56,550 nt of DNA from a virus, in the IMG/VR virus record IMGVR_UViG_3300037493_003812, positions 1 through 56,550 of that record. One strand, written 5' to 3'. Every line of letters begins with the position of its first letter. Position 1 is the stretch's first letter. Below, one piece after another: positions 6,343 to 56,118 of this stretch. A model generated the notes under the pieces. The model was not told the origin of the DNA, did not search any database, and saw nothing but the letters and a program-made list of their open reading frames with translations. Both the position numbers and the translations under genes were made by a program.

Positions 6343-7857
6343 TTACTTTTCCTCTGCGCACGTTGAACAGGAGCACCGAAGCCAGTGATTTTTAGTTATA
6401 ATCTTGCCGGCCTTACCACAACTTTCGCATGTAGTCTCCGACACCTTTTCAGCGGTTCTCGTAAACTGATAAATCATATCGTCTATATCACTTTCACCGT
6501 CTTCGGGATCAATATATGCACGAAGAGAATTTCCACACCAAACTCCCTTACCATTTCTTCTTACAAAGAGAGTATGATTAGGAACCGTAGCGCAGTACAC
6601 TTTTCCACTATACGTGGTCCATTGCTCAACATAAGAATTGGAATCGCGAAATGTCTTACCAGATATATTAAAACTGTTAGAATTCGTCAGCCAATTAATG
6701 CAATGACAATCGTAATTGCCGACAATGTTTCTATCTCCAACTGTTTTCTTTCTTTCCAAATTTCGAACTTGCTGATCTCGGCAAACATGACTAGAAGCAT
6801 ACCCAGCTTTTAAAATAAGCTCTTGAACATCGTCACTAAGACCCTTTGATACGGTATATAAGGTATTGGCGGTTTTACTTTTATGCCCATCGCCTCTATA
6901 AAGCCACTTTAAAAATATTTCTATTTGGTGCGGAGGAAGTTCTTTAATAAAATCGGGAGCCCTTTTGTTTTCTGCTCGGTGCTTTATATTTTTTGCACAC
7001 CATTTAGACAACTGTTGACTATAAATGTTATACACTACGGCCGGCTTATCAAGGCCAGATTTTGCGTATTTATAGCCGCAATCAGTTATAATTTTTTCCC
7101 ACGCCAATTGTTCTAGCCTTGCTTTTTCACTGCCGGAATTATCGGCACAAATTCCAACGGTATCTCCACGTTTATCAATACATCCCTCTGCGACTATAAT
7201 TCCAAGCAACGCTAACCAATTATCCATGTCAATAGTTTTATCACTAATAGTATATGTCCTGTTATATCTAGCAGTATTGGCAGAGTATTTCCAACCATTA
7301 AGAGTATAGGCATTTTCTTTTTTACCAACCCATGTAGCAGACTTTAAAAATCTTTTAGTCTTTTGAAAATATTTTTCCGGAGTGCTAAATTCCATGTCGT
7401 GAATTTTTGTATTTCCGGCTTTGTAAGCGCCCATAGAGTTTCCTTTGGCCCAAAACATATTGTGATTTGGCGTAACAAACAAGTCAACCCCTCTTGCCTG
7501 TAATTGATACATGGGACCAGAGTAATCATACGAAATTAGGTCGCTCGGCGCCTGATATTCCATAATGTGGGTGCTGGGATTTATTGTTGCGAGCAGGTCA
7601 TTCATCCCAACGTCTACAAAATACTTCCAACCATCTTTGGTTAGGACTTCTGTTTCCGTATCATAGCATCCGAACTTCTCCTTAAATTGAGAAGCAGTGA
7701 TTTGCTTTACGTTGTCATTTTCGTCAACATAGGATTGAATCTGAGAGCAAAGGTTGTCTGTTAGGTCATACCAACCGTCGCTATATTCAAACCAGAAATC
7801 TTCTGGGAACATCTTTGGGTATTTGGTAATGAGTCTAGCAGTCTTTTCTGGTGTCAT
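6343..7857 (-). CDS. Conserved phage protein with LAGLIDADG intein
   Basis: Residues 1-63 and 444-504 together form a 124-residue protein of a family common in phages: a DGWYDLTDNLCSQIQ block, a KEKFG.LR motif and a C-terminal CESCG...CSCSTC zinc site. Its function is unknown. Residues 64-443 are an intein (separate entry) inserted exactly at KEKFG/SLR. The ATG at 7857 has AGGA 6-8 nt upstream. Splicing would restore the host protein; without it the product would be cut in the middle of its most conserved stretch. Confidence 0.85.
   Translation of the reverse strand: MTPEKTARLITKYPKMFPEDFWFEYSDGWYDLTDNLCSQIQSYVDENDNVKQITASQFKEKFGCYDTETEVLTKDGWKYFVDVGMNDLLATINPSTHIMEYQAPSDLISYDYSGPMYQLQARGVDLFVTPNHNMFWAKGNSMGAYKAGNTKIHDMEFSTPEKYFQKTKRFLKSATWVGKKENAYTLNGWKYSANTARYNRTYTISDKTIDMDNWLALLGIIVAEGCIDKRGDTVGICADNSGSEKARLEQLAWEKIITDCGYKYAKSGLDKPAVVYNIYSQQLSKWCAKNIKHRAENKRAPDFIKELPPHQIEIFLKWLYRGDGHKSKTANTLYTVSKGLSDDVQELILKAGYASSHVCRDQQVRNLERKKTVGDRNIVGNYDCHCINWLTNSNSFNISGKTFRDSNSYVEQWTTYSGKVYCATVPNHTLFVRRNGKGVWCGNSLRAYIDPEDGESDIDDMIYQFTRTAEKVSETTCESCGKAGKIITKNHWLRCSCSTCAEEK
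6529..7668 (-). mobile_element. Intein with LAGLIDADG endonuclease, 380 aa
   Basis: Begins at a Cys (CYDTETEVLTKDG, block A) and has block B around VDLFVTPNHNMFWAKG. Two LAGLIDADG-like helices are present (LALLGIIVAEGC and IFLKWLYRGDGH). It ends VWCGN before Ser+1. The penultimate residue is Gly where His is usual; inteins lacking this His exist but often splice slowly or need partner changes. Boundaries are set by the flanking extein homology. Confidence 0.85.
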
Positions 7858-11893: not shown

Positions 11894-12135
11894 CCTCCCT
11901 GTCGATTTCTTTCACTTATTTTGCGGGCCCCAGGCGGCGCCAGGACCGTTCCAGAGCTCTCAGGCGCACTAGGGGTCGCCCGTGGGATCCAGGCGCCTCC
12001 TAGAGCCTCCCAGGCCCGTGCTAAGAGCACGGGCGACCCTCTAGGTCGTTCCTGCGTTCCGCAGGAATCTAGGGCAAGAAAAGGCGTATAAAGGCGAGCG
12101 TTTCGGTGCGAGGAACCTATGGGAAAACAGACGCA
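11894..12135. other. GC-rich structured element, copy II
   Basis: No gene. It shares a 30-bp block (11894-11923) and a 35-bp block (11939-11973) with copy I, in the same order and the same place relative to terminator and promoter. GGGTCGCCCGTG (11973) pairs with CACGGGCGACCC (12028). CCTGCGTTCCGCAGG is a further hairpin. Confidence 0.6.
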
Positions 12136-12146
12136 AAAACCCCAAT

Positions 12147-12168
12147 AAAAAAGCCGCCTTTCGGCAGC
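12147..12168 (-). terminator. Terminator after 12233-12616
   Basis: Minus strand GCTGCCGAAAGGCGGC followed by TTTTTT. Confidence 0.8.
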
Positions 12169-12232
12169 TTGTCTCATTCTTAGAATTTACACCAGGAGTG
12201 TATTATGCTGGCATCGTACCAGCGGTCTCGTC

Positions 12233-17580: not shown

Positions 17581-17842
17581 CGAAAGCCTCCAATAGTCTA
17601 TAACGACTTTCTACATAAGCGGCACTCCATTGCTTAACCTCGTCCACTACCAATACCGTATAATACGGTCGATTTCCCAGACTCTCCATAGATATGGTTA
17701 GTCCAATATAGCCAAGAATCAAAATCGTTTCTTGCTCGCAGCGGACCGAACGAAAGGCGGCGTCCTCGAAGCTGTTGCCCCTATACTTCAATAGATTGCC
17801 GGTTGAAAACATAGGCTCGGCCTTGTCATCCCTATATGTCAT
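17570..17842 (-). CDS. Family A mini-protein, 90 aa
   Basis: The ATG at 17842 overlaps the upstream TGA; MFSTGNLLKYRGN follows after ten extra residues. Middle TILILGYIG, C-terminus YTVLVVDEVKQWSAAYVES. Confidence 0.8.
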   Translation of the reverse strand: MTYRDDKAEPMFSTGNLLKYRGNSFEDAAFRSVRCEQETILILGYIGLTISMESLGNRPYYTVLVVDEVKQWSAAYVESRYRLLEAFDEI

Positions 17843-18045
17843 TGAAGCACCTTATAGCTGCCTTCATTGCTCCGATCAATCCATCCAATTTGTTCATCAT
17901 TCATAAGCAATTTCCAGGCTTCCTGAAAAGAATCCCAACCAATGATTATCGCCCTCCAACTCTCTTCATCGTCAGGATAATAGCGCCCCCCCTTCTCACT
18001 CAAACAAACAAGAGCGCCAATCCTAAAAATTTGCTTAGCACTCAT
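17839..18045 (-). CDS. Family A mini-protein, 68 aa
   Basis: FRIGALVCLSEKGGRYY start, RAIIIGWDS middle, WKLLMNDEQIGWID end. Close to 16421-16642 (FRIGAL.....KG). Confidence 0.85.
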   Translation of the reverse strand: MSAKQIFRIGALVCLSEKGGRYYPDDEESWRAIIIGWDSFQEAWKLLMNDEQIGWIDRSNEGSYKVLQ

Positions 18046-22386: not shown

Positions 22387-23415
22387 TTACAGATGGGCAG
22401 CGATGAAGCAACCTCTGGCTACTGCATGCAACGGATCAGCGGCATGACGAACTTCCTTGATATCACAAGGGAACTCATTCTCTTCAAGCTTCTTAGCAAA
22501 AGTCTCGACAAAGCCCTTGGCCTGCGAAGTGCCTCCACCAACTACAATCGGTAGAGCATTCTTGAACTTTGGGAGGTCCTTATGATTAGTAAGAGCCGCC
22601 GCTAGCTGTTTAGTCGTATAATCAATCAATCGCTCATAGTAAGCTGAAACAGCCGCAAGAATTTGATTGTCATTCGGTTGACCAATGACAAACTCGCCTG
22701 ACTCCTTCTCAGATTGAACCACGCTATCCGTTTGGCCAGTGGCGACCGCTGACATTCTATCAATCCAGTCGCCGCTCTTTGTTGTAGAGAACGTCAGGAC
22801 TGGTTCGCCTGTAAGCATAACACAAACGTTAACCATTCCAGCTCCCCAAGAGAGAGCAACACCTGTATAGTCATCCTTCTCTAACTCAGAGTAGCAAAGT
22901 GCTTCTGCTTCGTTAATAGACTTAGGTTCATAGCCCAGTTCCGCCAGGACCTTCTTTACTACGTCCTCATGATAGCCAACGTCAAACTCTTCATCCTCTT
23001 GATCGATGGGCTGTGCGGGGATACAGAAGACAATTTTCTCACCAGGTTCAGCCGCTGGTGTAGTGACCTCTTTAAGAATATAGGTGAGGATTTTACGAGC
23101 ATCCTTTTCTTTACTGGAAACTACACCACGAAACATAGGACGCTTAACGCTATCATTACGTTCTACGGCTTTCTCGATGGCATCTTTACCGAGGATAATG
23201 AAAGAACCATCGGAGTCTTTAACGAAGGTCTTACCTGCGAGACCTTTTTCAATCATTTTGGCAGCGATTGGAGTGGCCGGCTTAATGATGTAAAATGCGT
23301 CTCTAAAATCCTTATATTGAACGGTGCCGTCATCCTGCTCACTGGCTAAGACCACGAAACTAGTTCCTACGTCTAGACCTTTTCCTAATTTAGTCATTGG
23401 TGTTTTCTTTCTCAT
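22387..23415 (-). CDS. Actin-like ATPase, 342 aa
   Basis: Phosphate-1 loop GKGLDVGTSFVVLA (about 12-25), a phosphate-2-like GVALSWGAGMVNVCVM (about 195-210) and adenosine-site VVGGGTSQAKGF (about 290-301) are the three landmarks of the actin/Hsp70 fold. Length fits ParM/Alp/MreB-type proteins. It could polymerise to segregate or position phage DNA, but filament formation is inference. The next gene upstream encodes a membrane-anchored protein, a possible partner. An alternative start is the ATG at 23397. Confidence 0.8.
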   Translation of the reverse strand: MRKKTPMTKLGKGLDVGTSFVVLASEQDDGTVQYKDFRDAFYIIKPATPIAAKMIEKGLAGKTFVKDSDGSFIILGKDAIEKAVERNDSVKRPMFRGVVSSKEKDARKILTYILKEVTTPAAEPGEKIVFCIPAQPIDQEDEEFDVGYHEDVVKKVLAELGYEPKSINEAEALCYSELEKDDYTGVALSWGAGMVNVCVMLTGEPVLTFSTTKSGDWIDRMSAVATGQTDSVVQSEKESGEFVIGQPNDNQILAAVSAYYERLIDYTTKQLAAALTNHKDLPKFKNALPIVVGGGTSQAKGFVETFAKKLEENEFPCDIKEVRHAADPLHAVARGCFIAAHL

Positions 23416-24566: not shown

Positions 24567-26357
24567 CTATTCCCTTGGACTCGTAATATTACCATTTTCA
24601 TCCACAAAACCAAATGCTCTAAGCGTATGCTCAAATGGCTTTCCTTCAATCGAAGCAACCTGCTTAAGCATTTCTCCCGCTATCTCCCTAATTTCCAGCT
24701 GAGCATGCTTCGAATACCTGAGATTAAGGAAATGAGCAAAACTTCTAAAATTAAACATAACATCAATCGTTAGCTGATTCCCATAGGGTAGATATAGTCG
24801 AGCACTTTCCTTCGCTCGCTTTCTGTCCATACCACTAGCCACTAACCGTCCTAGACATTCGTGATAAGCTTTTAGACTATTCTCCATATGCTCGACGTAT
24901 CTAGCAACCTCTACGTTGTTCCAGTCCTGTGGAACGTAATACTTGTCATCCTTAAGTTCCTTATATCGAGCACTATTATGAACGACAACCCCGTTTGCTA
25001 CAAAATTTTTCCATTTACCAGCTATTTCAATATCAAAAGTTTTTTCCTCTTTTAACTCTTCAATTGACACAATTTTAGAATAATTCGCAGACAGTTTTTT
25101 CCCAATTCTTTTTTTTCTAGGCTTCCAGCAAGGCTTGAATTCTTCACTCAATACTTTATCTGCGAAAGATTTTTCTATCTCTTCTGTTTTGTGTATAGAG
25201 TGATGACAATTTTCACAAACAGTTATTAAGTTGTTAAATTCATATGCCAAATTTTCATCGGCGCCGACAGGAACAATGTGATGGGCGTGTAATGTAGAAC
25301 TTCCATTACCACACTCTTGGCATGTCCAATTAAACTTTTCATGAACACGCCGGGCATTTCTAGTTGTCCAAACTCCTATCAAGGATCTCTCCTTTGTTAT
25401 TCCACCCCTCCAAAAATGTGATTTGGATCCGGAGCTTGCTTTCCCTTGTGCTCGGCGTATTTGTAAACTCTCTTCGCTTAAATTTAAGGTGTATCCTTTG
25501 ATATTTTTATTCCAAGGGATACCCTCCTTTTTAAAATCCTTATTTAAATCAAGCTTAAAAAGAGCTTTGTGTATGTACCCCCACTTCTTACAAAGTTCAT
25601 ATTTTATTCCAGACTTTAACGCAAATTCTTTCATTGTAAATTCGTGAGACTGTGCAAAGTATTCAGGAAACGTCCAAGGACGGGAAGGAACATGTGTTTT
25701 AATGCCGTTTGTGGCGACCTCGACACCTACCCGAAGTGTTTTATCGGAAATAGTTGACCACCCATTTCGTGTATATACCCTATGATCTTTTGAGCACTTT
25801 AACACTTTTCCATCTGATAGCGTTATTTTATAAACCAATTTTTGGCCAGAGCAAGTAATGTCCTTAACGTGCGAATATTCGAAAACATTTGTTTCTTCAT
25901 TTAAGACACGAATTTTCATTCGTTGTAATCTTTTTCTTTGATAATCAATCTCTGCCTTAGATGTTGAATTGTTGCGACCAGTATTCCATTTCTGGTATAA
26001 ATCTTCAATTTTAAAACGAAGCTTCGGAGTGGCCTGATCGTTGGTGTTAACGAATGTTATTTCGCTTGAACCATCCAAACATTCACTATTGATAGAGACC
26101 CCAATTCTATGTTTTAGCAAATGAATATGGGAATCCAAAGAGGTGGTGGCTAGAAAATGAAGGCTACTCTTCTCAAAGGGAGAGTGATGATTATTTTCAG
26201 CCAGCATCTTTAGAAGAGCTGGAATACGAGCTACTTTTTCTGGCGTAAGTTCTCTTGAAGTGGAGGTCCACGCAGAACACGCATGTTCACTATCGCCACC
26301 GTAGGTTCCAAGAATTTCGACAGTATTTTGATGTGCTAATTTAATTGCTGTAGTCAT
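24567..26357 (-). CDS. thyX: ThyX, FAD-dependent thymidylate synthase, with intein
   Basis: The exteins (about 92 + 135 residues, 227 aa) form a full ThyX: STSRELTPEKVARIPALLKM, HSPFEKSSLHFLA, and the ThyX motif KHRIGVSINSE/SARYKEL. It methylates dUMP to dTMP using FAD and methylene-tetrahydrofolate. The intein (separate entry) splits the signature motif, so no active enzyme forms without splicing. I prefer the ATG at 26357, 6 nt after TATAAT, over the in-frame ATG at 26381, which would start upstream of that box. Confidence 0.95.
   Translation of the reverse strand: MTTAIKLAHQNTVEILGTYGGDSEHACSAWTSTSRELTPEKVARIPALLKMLAENNHHSPFEKSSLHFLATTSLDSHIHLLKHRIGVSINSECLDGSSEITFVNTNDQATPKLRFKIEDLYQKWNTGRNNSTSKAEIDYQRKRLQRMKIRVLNEETNVFEYSHVKDITCSGQKLVYKITLSDGKVLKCSKDHRVYTRNGWSTISDKTLRVGVEVATNGIKTHVPSRPWTFPEYFAQSHEFTMKEFALKSGIKYELCKKWGYIHKALFKLDLNKDFKKEGIPWNKNIKGYTLNLSEESLQIRRAQGKASSGSKSHFWRGGITKERSLIGVWTTRNARRVHEKFNWTCQECGNGSSTLHAHHIVPVGADENLAYEFNNLITVCENCHHSIHKTEEIEKSFADKVLSEEFKPCWKPRKKRIGKKLSANYSKIVSIEELKEEKTFDIEIAGKWKNFVANGVVVHNSARYKELKDDKYYVPQDWNNVEVARYVEHMENSLKAYHECLGRLVASGMDRKRAKESARLYLPYGNQLTIDVMFNFRSFAHFLNLRYSKHAQLEIREIAGEMLKQVASIEGKPFEHTLRAFGFVDENGNITSPRE
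24975..26081 (-). mobile_element. Intein with HNH endonuclease, 369 aa
   Basis: Starts CLDGSSEITFVNTND, block B VLKCSKDHRVYTRNG, ends FVANGVVVHN before Ser+1: all splicing residues are standard. The endonuclease is HNH (CQECGNGSSTLHAHHIVPVG, ITVCENCHHSIH) rather than LAGLIDADG, an uncommon intein type. Confidence 0.9.
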
Positions 26358-26363
26358 TGGTCT

Positions 26364-26369
26364 ATTATA
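26364..26369 (-). promoter_or_regulatory. -10 box of thyX
   Basis: TATAAT with the ATG 6 nt downstream as in the leaderless set, but no TTTAAA at 17 nt. Confidence 0.55.
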
Positions 26370-26396
26370 GAATGCCGGCATTAAAAGATATACCGA

Positions 26397-54219: not shown

Positions 54220-54223
54220 AAAG

Positions 54224-54295
54224 CTCCAAGACTAGGGATCGGACCTAGGACTTATCGGTTAACAGCCGAGCGTTCTACCACTGAACTATCTTGGA
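54224..54295 (-). tRNA. tRNA-Asn (GTT)
   Basis: Acceptor TCCAAGA/TCTTGGA; anticodon loop TGTTAAC with GTT. The T-loop is TCCGATC, so the near-universal T55 is C. No encoded CCA. Confidence 0.85.
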
Positions 54296-54303
54296 ATATA
54301 CAA

Positions 54304-55146
54304 CTACATCTTACTGTAAGATCGAATCCATTTTCTAATGGCATTATCACTCACACCGTATTTTTTACCGACAGACACATAACTAGTCGTCTTCAACTCA
54401 TTCATCAATACTTCTAACGAAGGTCGTTCGACTTTTCTATTTCGTCTCGCCTGACACGGCGCACACCGCTTGGCTCCAATTACTATTTCTGTTTGACATT
54501 CTAAACAGAAACAGTTTTTTCTTTCCGGCTTAATTGGTTTTTCATATTCAACAATAGGTAAAGCCAACTTCTCTAATACAAGATTTACGCAAGCCATAAC
54601 ATCTTCACGAACGGCCTTTGCGGGTATTCTTACCACTTCCCAACCGTGTCCAACAGCAACAGCATCCCGCCGGGCGTCAATCTTTTTGACTTTATCTTGT
54701 CTGTGTGTATCACCGTCGATTTCAACATCTAAACGACACTCTGGCCAAGCAAAGTCAAAACTATACATACCGAAAGCGTATTCAGTTTCCCAGCCCACTA
54801 CACCGTTTTCTTTCAAAGCTTTTTCAAAGGCTTGCTCAGGATAAGAGCGCTTGCTAGAATGATACAGCCGATACGGTATTTTGCTCGGATTTGCTTCATA
54901 ATATCTAATTTGAGATTCGGATATCTTTCGTCTTGTTTCCTCGCTTGGAGCAGGTCGTTTATGATTTAACTGATGCAGCCTCTGCGCTTCACTCGGAGTC
55001 CTAAATGAAATTTCACCTCGACTCTTTGCTTTATACAAAGCAGCAACACACACGCCGTATTTAACACACAAATCTTTTTGACTCATGCCAGAGTCATATT
55101 CCGCTTGCAATAACTTCCAATCGTATCGTTTATGATATTTACTCAT
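54304..55146 (-). CDS. Vsr/DUF559-like homing endonuclease, 280 aa
   Basis: N-terminal HTH (residues 8-45, MSQKDLCVKYGVCVAALYKA), NUMOD-like SEETRRKISESQ, then a PD-(D/E)xK-type core: YPEQAFEKAL, YSFDFAWPECRLDVEIDGDTH, IDARRDAVAVGHGWEVVRIP. A zinc knuckle (CFCLEC...CAPCQ) and a second HTH (VGKKYGVSDNAIRKWI) end the protein. This EDxHD-like layout is typical of very-short-patch-repair-related homing endonucleases. It sits between tRNA genes. Confidence 0.85.
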   Translation of the reverse strand: MSKYHKRYDWKLLQAEYDSGMSQKDLCVKYGVCVAALYKAKSRGEISFRTPSEAQRLHQLNHKRPAPSEETRRKISESQIRYYEANPSKIPYRLYHSSKRSYPEQAFEKALKENGVVGWETEYAFGMYSFDFAWPECRLDVEIDGDTHRQDKVKKIDARRDAVAVGHGWEVVRIPAKAVREDVMACVNLVLEKLALPIVEYEKPIKPERKNCFCLECQTEIVIGAKRCAPCQARRNRKVERPSLEVLMNELKTTSYVSVGKKYGVSDNAIRKWIRSYSKM

Positions 55147-55182: not shown

Positions 55183-55212
55183 CTATTTTCGTGTTCAAAG
55201 TGCTTTTATTTG

Positions 55213-55290
55213 TAGGGCCGGCGGGAGTCGAACCCACATTGCTTTCGCTCGGATTAAGAATCCGCTACATAGCCGCTCTGTCACGACCCT
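55213..55290 (-). tRNA. tRNA with CTT (Lys) anticodon, long variable arm
   Basis: Acceptor AGGGTCG/CGGCCCT, anticodon loop TTCTTAA (CTT), T-loop TTCGACT. The variable region is about 11-12 nt with a GC-GAAA-GC mini-hairpin, unlike the 4-5 nt of normal tRNA-Lys. 78 nt. Confidence 0.8.
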
Positions 55291-55308
55291 AAATCTTCAA
55301 CTACTTTG

Positions 55309-55381
55309 TGGAACCAGAGGGGAACGATCCCTCGACTGTCGCCTTAAAAGGGCGCTACTCTACCAACTGAGTTATGGTTCC
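55309..55381 (-). tRNA. tRNA-Lys (TTT)
   Basis: Acceptor GGAACCA/TGGTTCC, D-stem ACTC/GAGT, anticodon loop CTTTTAA. The T-loop ATCGTTC has A54 and T58 in place of T54 and A58. Confidence 0.9.
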
Positions 55382-55447: not shown

Positions 55448-55523
55448 TGGTGACCCCAACGGGGTACGATCCCGTGTACCCGCCGTGAAAGGGCGGTATC
55501 CTTAACCACTAGATGATAGGGCC
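55448..55523 (-). tRNA. tRNA-Glu (TTC)
   Basis: Acceptor GGCCCTA/TGGGGTC, anticodon stem CCGCC/GGCGG with loop CTTTCAC. The CCA end is encoded. The T-loop ATCGTAC again has A54/T58. Confidence 0.9.
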
Positions 55524-55727
55524 ATCGCAAAGCCAATGCCTTGCATTAAGATAAGGCGTTATAGAAATGAGTCATAATGAAAGACACGAAACCGTAATGG
55601 GTTGGCCTTCAAATGATGCTCGGCAATCATTTCTAATAACACCGGTGATGAGCATACGTATAGCGGAACACAGGTTACCTATGCACGCACGCCCCTTGCG
55701 GGACTCTTAATATGTTCTCACTCTCAG
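55524..55727 (-). other. Spacer element related to 54083-54219
   Basis: On the minus strand GTGTTA..GAA, then TGAAGGCC..CCATT, ACGG and CGTGT.TTCAT occur in the same order as in the stem-loop beside tRNA-Asn. A 27-codon frame is open but unconvincing. May be a second, decayed copy of the same element, lying between tRNAs. Confidence 0.4.
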
Positions 55728-55816
55728 TCCACCTATGGGGTGTCGATCCCCATCCGTTCGCCGATCTGGCGATTAAAGATTATAAGTCTTCCCGCACTGC
55801 CGAGTGCTTTAGGTGG
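55728..55816 (-). tRNA. Class II-type tRNA with TAT anticodon
   Basis: Acceptor CCACCTA/TAGGTGG, D-stem GCAC/GTGC, anticodon stem GAAGA/TCTTT around CTTATAA (TAT, reads AUA). A long variable arm TCGCC-AGAT-CGGCGA is present. 89 nt. A long arm normally marks Leu, Ser or Tyr tRNAs, yet the anticodon is for Ile. Confidence 0.8.
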
Positions 55817-55848
55817 TAATATATTAATTAGTAGTAGACTTGAAATAG

Positions 55849-55916
55849 AGTCGAAACGATTTAGAGGGTACCATCTTCGCCGAGCATACCCAGCCAAGCT
55901 CTTCATCGCCTCGACT
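55849..55916 (-). ncRNA. Structured RNA at transcript 5' end, 68 nt
   Basis: AGTCGAGGCGAT pairs with ATCGTTTCGACT (12 bp, two G-T), with inner GAGC/GCTC and GGGTA/TACCC pairings. Its first base lies where the promoter at 55922-55950 should start transcription. It precedes the tRNA array. Confidence 0.6.
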
Positions 55917-55921
55917 TACTC

Positions 55922-55950
55922 AGTATACCAGAACCTTACCCGAATTTAAA
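55922..55950 (-). promoter_or_regulatory. Promoter of tRNA array
   Basis: -35 TTTAAA, 17-nt spacer, TGGTATACT. Confidence 0.85.
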
Positions 55951-56009
55951 CCCTTTTAAGAAAGATTTTTATTTTATTTTGCCGGCCTTAATAACCAGCT
56001 GAAATTTAG

Positions 56010-56083
56010 AAGTCAAAGGACCGGTGCACAGAGGCAACACAACGGTTAAGAGAGAAACCCTCGGTGTCGTGTCTCTTTGACTT
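56010..56083 (-). ncRNA. Structured RNA at transcript 5' end, 74 nt
   Basis: AAGTCAAAG pairs with CTTTGACTT (9 bp) closing a loop with further short pairings. The 5' base coincides with the start site predicted from the -10 at 56090-56095. No gene follows before the next promoter. Confidence 0.6.
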
Positions 56084-56089
56084 ACTTTC

Positions 56090-56118
56090 AGTATAACAGA
56101 GCCGGCTCTCTTTTTAAA
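56090..56118 (-). promoter_or_regulatory. Promoter of 56010-56083 RNA
   Basis: -35 TTTAAA, 17-nt spacer, TATACT. Confidence 0.85.

Follow-up and report, generated by a model that had tools for sequence, protein, structure and literature searches.

What do promoters at the head of a phage tRNA cluster transcribe when no credible gene follows them? This question is raised by two promoters, P1 and P2, and by the putative transcripts that begin there, RNA1 and RNA2, near the right end of a 56.5-kb linear fragment (56,550 nt, hereafter 'the window') of the IMG/VR virus record IMGVR_UViG_3300037493_003812. The majority of genes in the window lie on the minus strand and their functions fit a large tailed phage, including nicotinamide phosphoribosyltransferase, DNA ligase, a T4-type RNA ligase, an intein-bearing ThyX and a head maturation protease. 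The right end of the window is the C-terminus of a ribonucleotide reductase, which we take to be of the NrdJ type, judging by its tail sequence. Reading along the minus strand, the 3' end of this gene is succeeded by P1 and RNA1, P2 and RNA2, tRNA-Ile (UAU), a 200-nt gap and tRNA-Glu, and thereafter by two tRNA-Lys genes, an endonuclease-like gene and tRNA-Asn (Table 1).

Several other features of the window deserve record. The ThyX gene (24567-26381, minus strand) is split by its intein, which bears an HNH endonuclease domain, and positions 6343-7857 give LAGLIDADG and thymidylate-synthase-family matches. An actin-like protein encoded at 22387-23415 (minus strand) matches the Pfam Volactin family at 4e-62, here in a phage fragment. 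Finally, a GC-rich stretch at 11930-12180 (minus strand), located 3' of a terminator-like hairpin and 5' of a leaderless gene, is strongly structured, with stacked stems scoring up to 36 and a window z of -4.5; it has no match in Rfam.

Table 1. Features at the head of the tRNA cluster, with positions in the window.
Feature	Position	Strand	Remarks
Promoter P1	56090..56118	-	TTTAAA (56118-56113), N17, TATACT (56095-56090); motif common to 30 other promoters in the window
RNA1 (putative)	56010..56083	-	74 nt; 9-bp closing stem AAGUCAAAG/CUUUGACUU from the predicted first base; no ORF
Promoter P2	55922..55950	-	TTTAAA (55950-55945), N17, TATACT (55927-55922)
RNA2 (putative)	55849..55916	-	68 nt; 12-bp closing stem AGUCGAGGCGAU/AUCGUUUCGACU; fold z -4.4
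57-aa ATG ORF in RNA2	55736..55906	-	Runs into tRNA-Ile; judged non-coding
tRNA-Ile (UAU)	55727..55816	-	Cluster's first tRNA, about 100 nt past the predicted RNA2 start
Candidate element A	55645..55726	-	Weakly closed hairpin; fold z -2.05
Candidate element B	55550..55648	-	Closed by GGUGUUAU and UAGAAAUGA / UCAUUUCUA and AUAACGCC; fold z -4.0
tRNA-Glu	55448..55523	-	
tRNA-Lys (two)	55308-55381, 55212-55290	-	
DUF559/MTES_1575 endonuclease-like gene	54304..55146	-	Free-standing, with helix-turn-helix; within the tRNA cluster
tRNA-Asn	54223..54295	-	

A scan of the minus strand of the window with the pattern TT[T/G]AAA-N17-TATA[A/C]T returned 31 promoters of the phage's own type. At 29 of these the predicted start lies 1 to 63 nt from an ATG that opens an ORF of no fewer than 50 codons, and most of the genes so driven are leaderless, the A of the ATG being the seventh base after the -10 box. 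(Leaderless ATGs at these promoters are often followed by ATGAAGACGA.) The two promoters that lack a credible gene are P1 and P2; they are also the two with a long stem at the start, a feature found at none of the 29 gene-driving promoters. A preliminary description of the locus had placed both stems 6 to 7 nt after their -10 boxes, at the same distance as the leaderless ATGs. Its coordinates are correct and refer to the minus strand, and the spacing agrees with ours, the stem of RNA1 beginning on the seventh base and that of RNA2 on the sixth. Its further description of both promoters as near-consensus is right with respect to the phage's own consensus and to the -10 box, but the -35 box, TTTAAA, shares only four of six bases with TTGACA.

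For both RNA1 and RNA2, the stem is predicted to begin at the first transcribed base. Measured against shuffled sequence, the fold energy of RNA2 is good and that of RNA1 modest (z -2.1), while 80-nt windows over the two fall at approximately the 6th to 7th percentile of folds on the minus strand, which is not extreme. Beyond the stem their interiors are not alike (p 0.62), so the two are not demonstrably members of one family. No intrinsic terminator was found between or after them, and RNA1 is followed by the second promoter, P2, and not by a tRNA. Furthermore, a search for base-paired targets of RNA1 and RNA2 among the starts of the phage's promoter-driven transcripts returned none above shuffles or chance.

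The reading that we favour, and consider probable by a slim balance from the arrangement of these elements, is that RNA1 and RNA2 are two small, end-sealed, non-coding phage RNAs at the head of the tRNA cluster transcript. By their motifs, P1 and P2 would be start sites for a sigma70-type RNA polymerase, and each predicted start coincides with the first pair of a long stem closing a domain of about 70 nt, such that the 5' end would pair with a stretch ending at +74 (RNA1) or +68 (RNA2). If the transcript starts on the first pair of the stem, its 5' triphosphate would therefore never be single-stranded. An unpaired 5' end is, in E. coli and B. subtilis, favoured by RppH and required for the 5'-end-dependent activity of RNase E, and transcripts are stabilised by 5' hairpins (PMC3997798); RNA1 and RNA2 should likewise resist 5'-end-dependent decay. 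Since no terminator lies downstream, the 3' ends would arise when a read-through tRNA precursor is processed by the same kind of RNases as free the tRNAs. Each resulting RNA would be stable, tRNA-sized and active in trans, most likely through binding to a protein or an RNase. The preliminary description had seen here small phage RNAs with protected 5' ends. Promoter, predicted start, closing stem and the want of a credible gene, a combination that outperforms the control promoters, bear out the anatomical part of that suggestion, which is also the best reading; transcription, processing, stability and action in trans are inferred, and no terminator was found that would define a discrete 3' end.

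Precisely because no terminator occurs between or after them, RNA1 and RNA2 may instead be the 5' parts of a longer tRNA precursor. Tandem promoters would then drive the tRNA cluster, the stems would protect or pause the nascent precursor, and the hairpins would be discarded as by-products with no function in trans. We regard this as unlikely overall, while recognising that it has real merits: RNA1, RNA2 and tRNA-Ile follow one another with no intervening terminator, RNA2 lies only about 30 nt upstream of tRNA-Ile, and stabilisation of transcripts by 5' stems is an established phenomenon (PMC3997798). Against it, a second tRNA operon, probably belonging to the same phage (L093, 16752), has the same type of promoter and proceeds through approximately 24 nt with no hairpin to tRNA-Leu, so that this phage's tRNA operons do not generally require a hairpin leader. 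Nor does a tRNA follow RNA1, the next element being P2, and the stems enclose an entire tRNA-sized domain of 68 to 74 nt where a leader might have carried a small terminal hairpin. It is these three features, the hairpin-free operon, the position of P2 and the size of the closed domains, that lead us to favour a trans-acting small RNA over a mere leader. The presence of similar closed elements inside the tRNA cluster, described below, likewise runs counter to the leader interpretation.

An improbable alternative is that P1 and P2 are working promoters of the tRNA cluster that happen to precede complementary stretches. Stems of comparable length are indeed not rare, since the minus strand of the window has 142 that score at least 20, and when the 312-nt region was shuffled and stems were scored without anchoring, 29% of shuffles reached the score of RNA1 and 3% that of RNA2. 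Without a promoter anchor, stems of such length are common enough to mean little. We also anchored the comparison, taking the best stem starting on the sixth to eighth base after each -10 box and comparing it with those in dinucleotide shuffles of the downstream sequence. An equally good anchored stem arose in 0.3% of shuffles for RNA1 and in none of 300 for RNA2, against 9% to 96% for the other 29 promoters; over the minus strand as a whole, a stem scoring as high as RNA1's starts at 0.95% of positions and one scoring as high as RNA2's at 0.13%. If the two starts are specified beforehand, these rates combine to a joint chance of approximately 1.2e-5, although the probability that at least two of 31 promoters reach RNA1's score by chance is a less forbidding 0.035. 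Both stems, moreover, fall at exactly the two promoters that lack a credible gene. The weight of the evidence is in this conjunction: a promoter whose predicted first base opens a stem and which leads into no credible gene.

That no good gene follows either promoter, as the preliminary description maintained, is correct for RNA1, which contains no ATG ORF and no ORF of over 23 codons; RNA2 does contain a 57-codon ORF, and we rejected it on codon use. We consider it highly improbable that RNA2 comprises the short leader and opening codons of a 57-aa gene, on the pattern of the phage's other short-leader genes, with RNA1 an unrelated promoter region: the ATG, 10 nt past the predicted start, opens a frame matched in length by just 1.2% of shuffles, but the codon score of its first 30 codons (-0.22) is below that of all 29 promoter-driven genes (-0.01 to 0.42) and is exceeded by 84% of non-coding open shuffles, its second half lies within tRNA-Ile, half of its start codon lies inside the 12-bp stem, whereas none of the 29 gene-driving promoters has a long stem at its start, and it has no match in Pfam.

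The small-RNA reading may extend further into the cluster. Compared with its shuffles, the sequence separating tRNA-Ile from tRNA-Glu folds more stably (z -3.2), and it accommodates two candidate elements, A and B, the latter comprising two helices with a bulge between them. Positions 55550-55726 of the window, which cover both, contain neither a credible ORF nor a tRNA. A and B could be two further RNAs of the RNA1/RNA2 kind; the case for them is weaker, because the pattern scan found no phage-type promoter in front. A bolder extension, that the cluster yields four tRNA-sized, end-sealed non-tRNA RNAs (RNA1, RNA2, A and B) that are processed alongside the tRNAs and act, as decoys or as inhibitors, on host enzymes attacking tRNA or RNA ends, is in our opinion a long shot. 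If true, the set would define a novel class of RNA by which phages counter host defence.

Relatives of these RNAs were sought by several routes. Rfam 15, searched with gathering thresholds and again permissively to E = 5, has no family for RNA1 or RNA2 and no match to the GOLLD or ROOL covariance models, and only the tRNAs reach gathering score. A reading of RNA1, RNA2, A and B as degenerate or derived tRNAs was tried and rejected, with no match by ARAGORN and none in Rfam even at E up to 5. In a blastn comparison with 50,697 phage records, T4 included, tRNA-Glu was the sole match and there was none to rnaC or rnaD. IMG/VR searches for relatives by way of the endonuclease, the NrdJ C-terminus, the RNA ligase, a PHROG 1818 protein and an ATPase-like protein, and searches with the promoter and stem patterns, returned either nothing or contigs lacking the RNA1/RNA2 region; folding the matches from one promoter-pattern search revealed a comparable closed domain at the start in none. 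Relatives of the NrdJ gene, 67-77% identical, are followed by ordinary coding genes and no tRNAs, and an NrdJ scan of GTDB genomes returned none. A relative of the ATPase-like gene, 76% identical, lies on G016, a contig with no tRNAs and no RNA1 or RNA2. Neither IMG/VR nor the GenBank phages yielded a relative with the region, in searches that may skip the records nearest the window's own.

Sequence that probably continues this phage was nevertheless recovered. One end of an IMG/VR contig (L052, record G001) matches the last 166 bp of the window at 99.4% identity, and for this reason the contig probably continues the same phage or one nearly identical to it. ARAGORN finds ten tRNAs on it, and it has a tRNA operon with the same promoter type and no hairpin, but it lacks the RNA1/RNA2 region. 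On L093, in the probable continuation of the phage, a tRNA-like gene at 17771-17849 (plus strand) scores 36 bits with the Rfam model and was missed by ARAGORN. A 64-bp block of promoter plus leader recurs with 90% identity at 49157-49095 in the window and 8273-8335 in L093, and the leader of the window copy has a GACGGGCG/CGCCCGTC hairpin upstream of a 249-aa ATPase-like gene.

T4 has long been known to encode small non-tRNA RNAs next to its tRNAs, and such RNAs are reported near the tRNA genes of other phages. The T4 tRNA region encodes two of them (PMC3014915), RNAC and RNAD, the species 1 and 2 stable RNAs (AF158101, 70908-71046 and 71053-71171), and by analogy of placement, with no sequence homology, these are the nearest known kind to RNA1 and RNA2. 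In both phages two adjacent small non-tRNA RNAs, putative in ours, adjoin a tRNA cluster that also has an endonuclease gene, homing in T4 and endonuclease-like here. The T4 RNAs are larger, however (119-139 nt against 68-74 nt), and share no sequence match with ours; RNAC ends in a tRNA-like T-arm stem and the predicted fold of RNAD has no end-joining stem, unlike RNA1 and RNA2. Furthermore, they are at the far end of their tRNA cluster and are classed as late (PMC9697503), whereas RNA1 and RNA2 are at the promoters heading theirs. GOLLD and ROOL are also structured non-coding phage RNAs often found near tRNA islands (PMC12286853), but they are multi-domain and far larger, many GOLLD RNAs exceeding 800 nt, and Rfam assigns RNA1 and RNA2 to neither. 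Phage K lnc001 and lnc002 resemble our candidates in being non-coding phage transcripts beside tRNA genes, one having its own early promoter (PMC9241854); they differ in extending over hundreds of nucleotides in a staphylococcal phage, and the phage-wide DNA search detected no homology. The papA-type 5' stabilising stem-loops of bacterial mRNAs offer a parallel of another sort, since in them the transcript opens directly with a stem that shields its 5' end from RppH and RNase E (PMC3997798), as is predicted for RNA1 and RNA2; those stem-loops precede coding regions, whereas the stems of RNA1 and RNA2 close a 70-nt domain with no credible gene after it. In the present case promoter, start site and closing stem can all be read from the sequence, with 29 coding promoters as internal controls, and their coincidence provides a simple rule for finding more such RNAs, together with precise predictions for 5'-end mapping and Northern blot.
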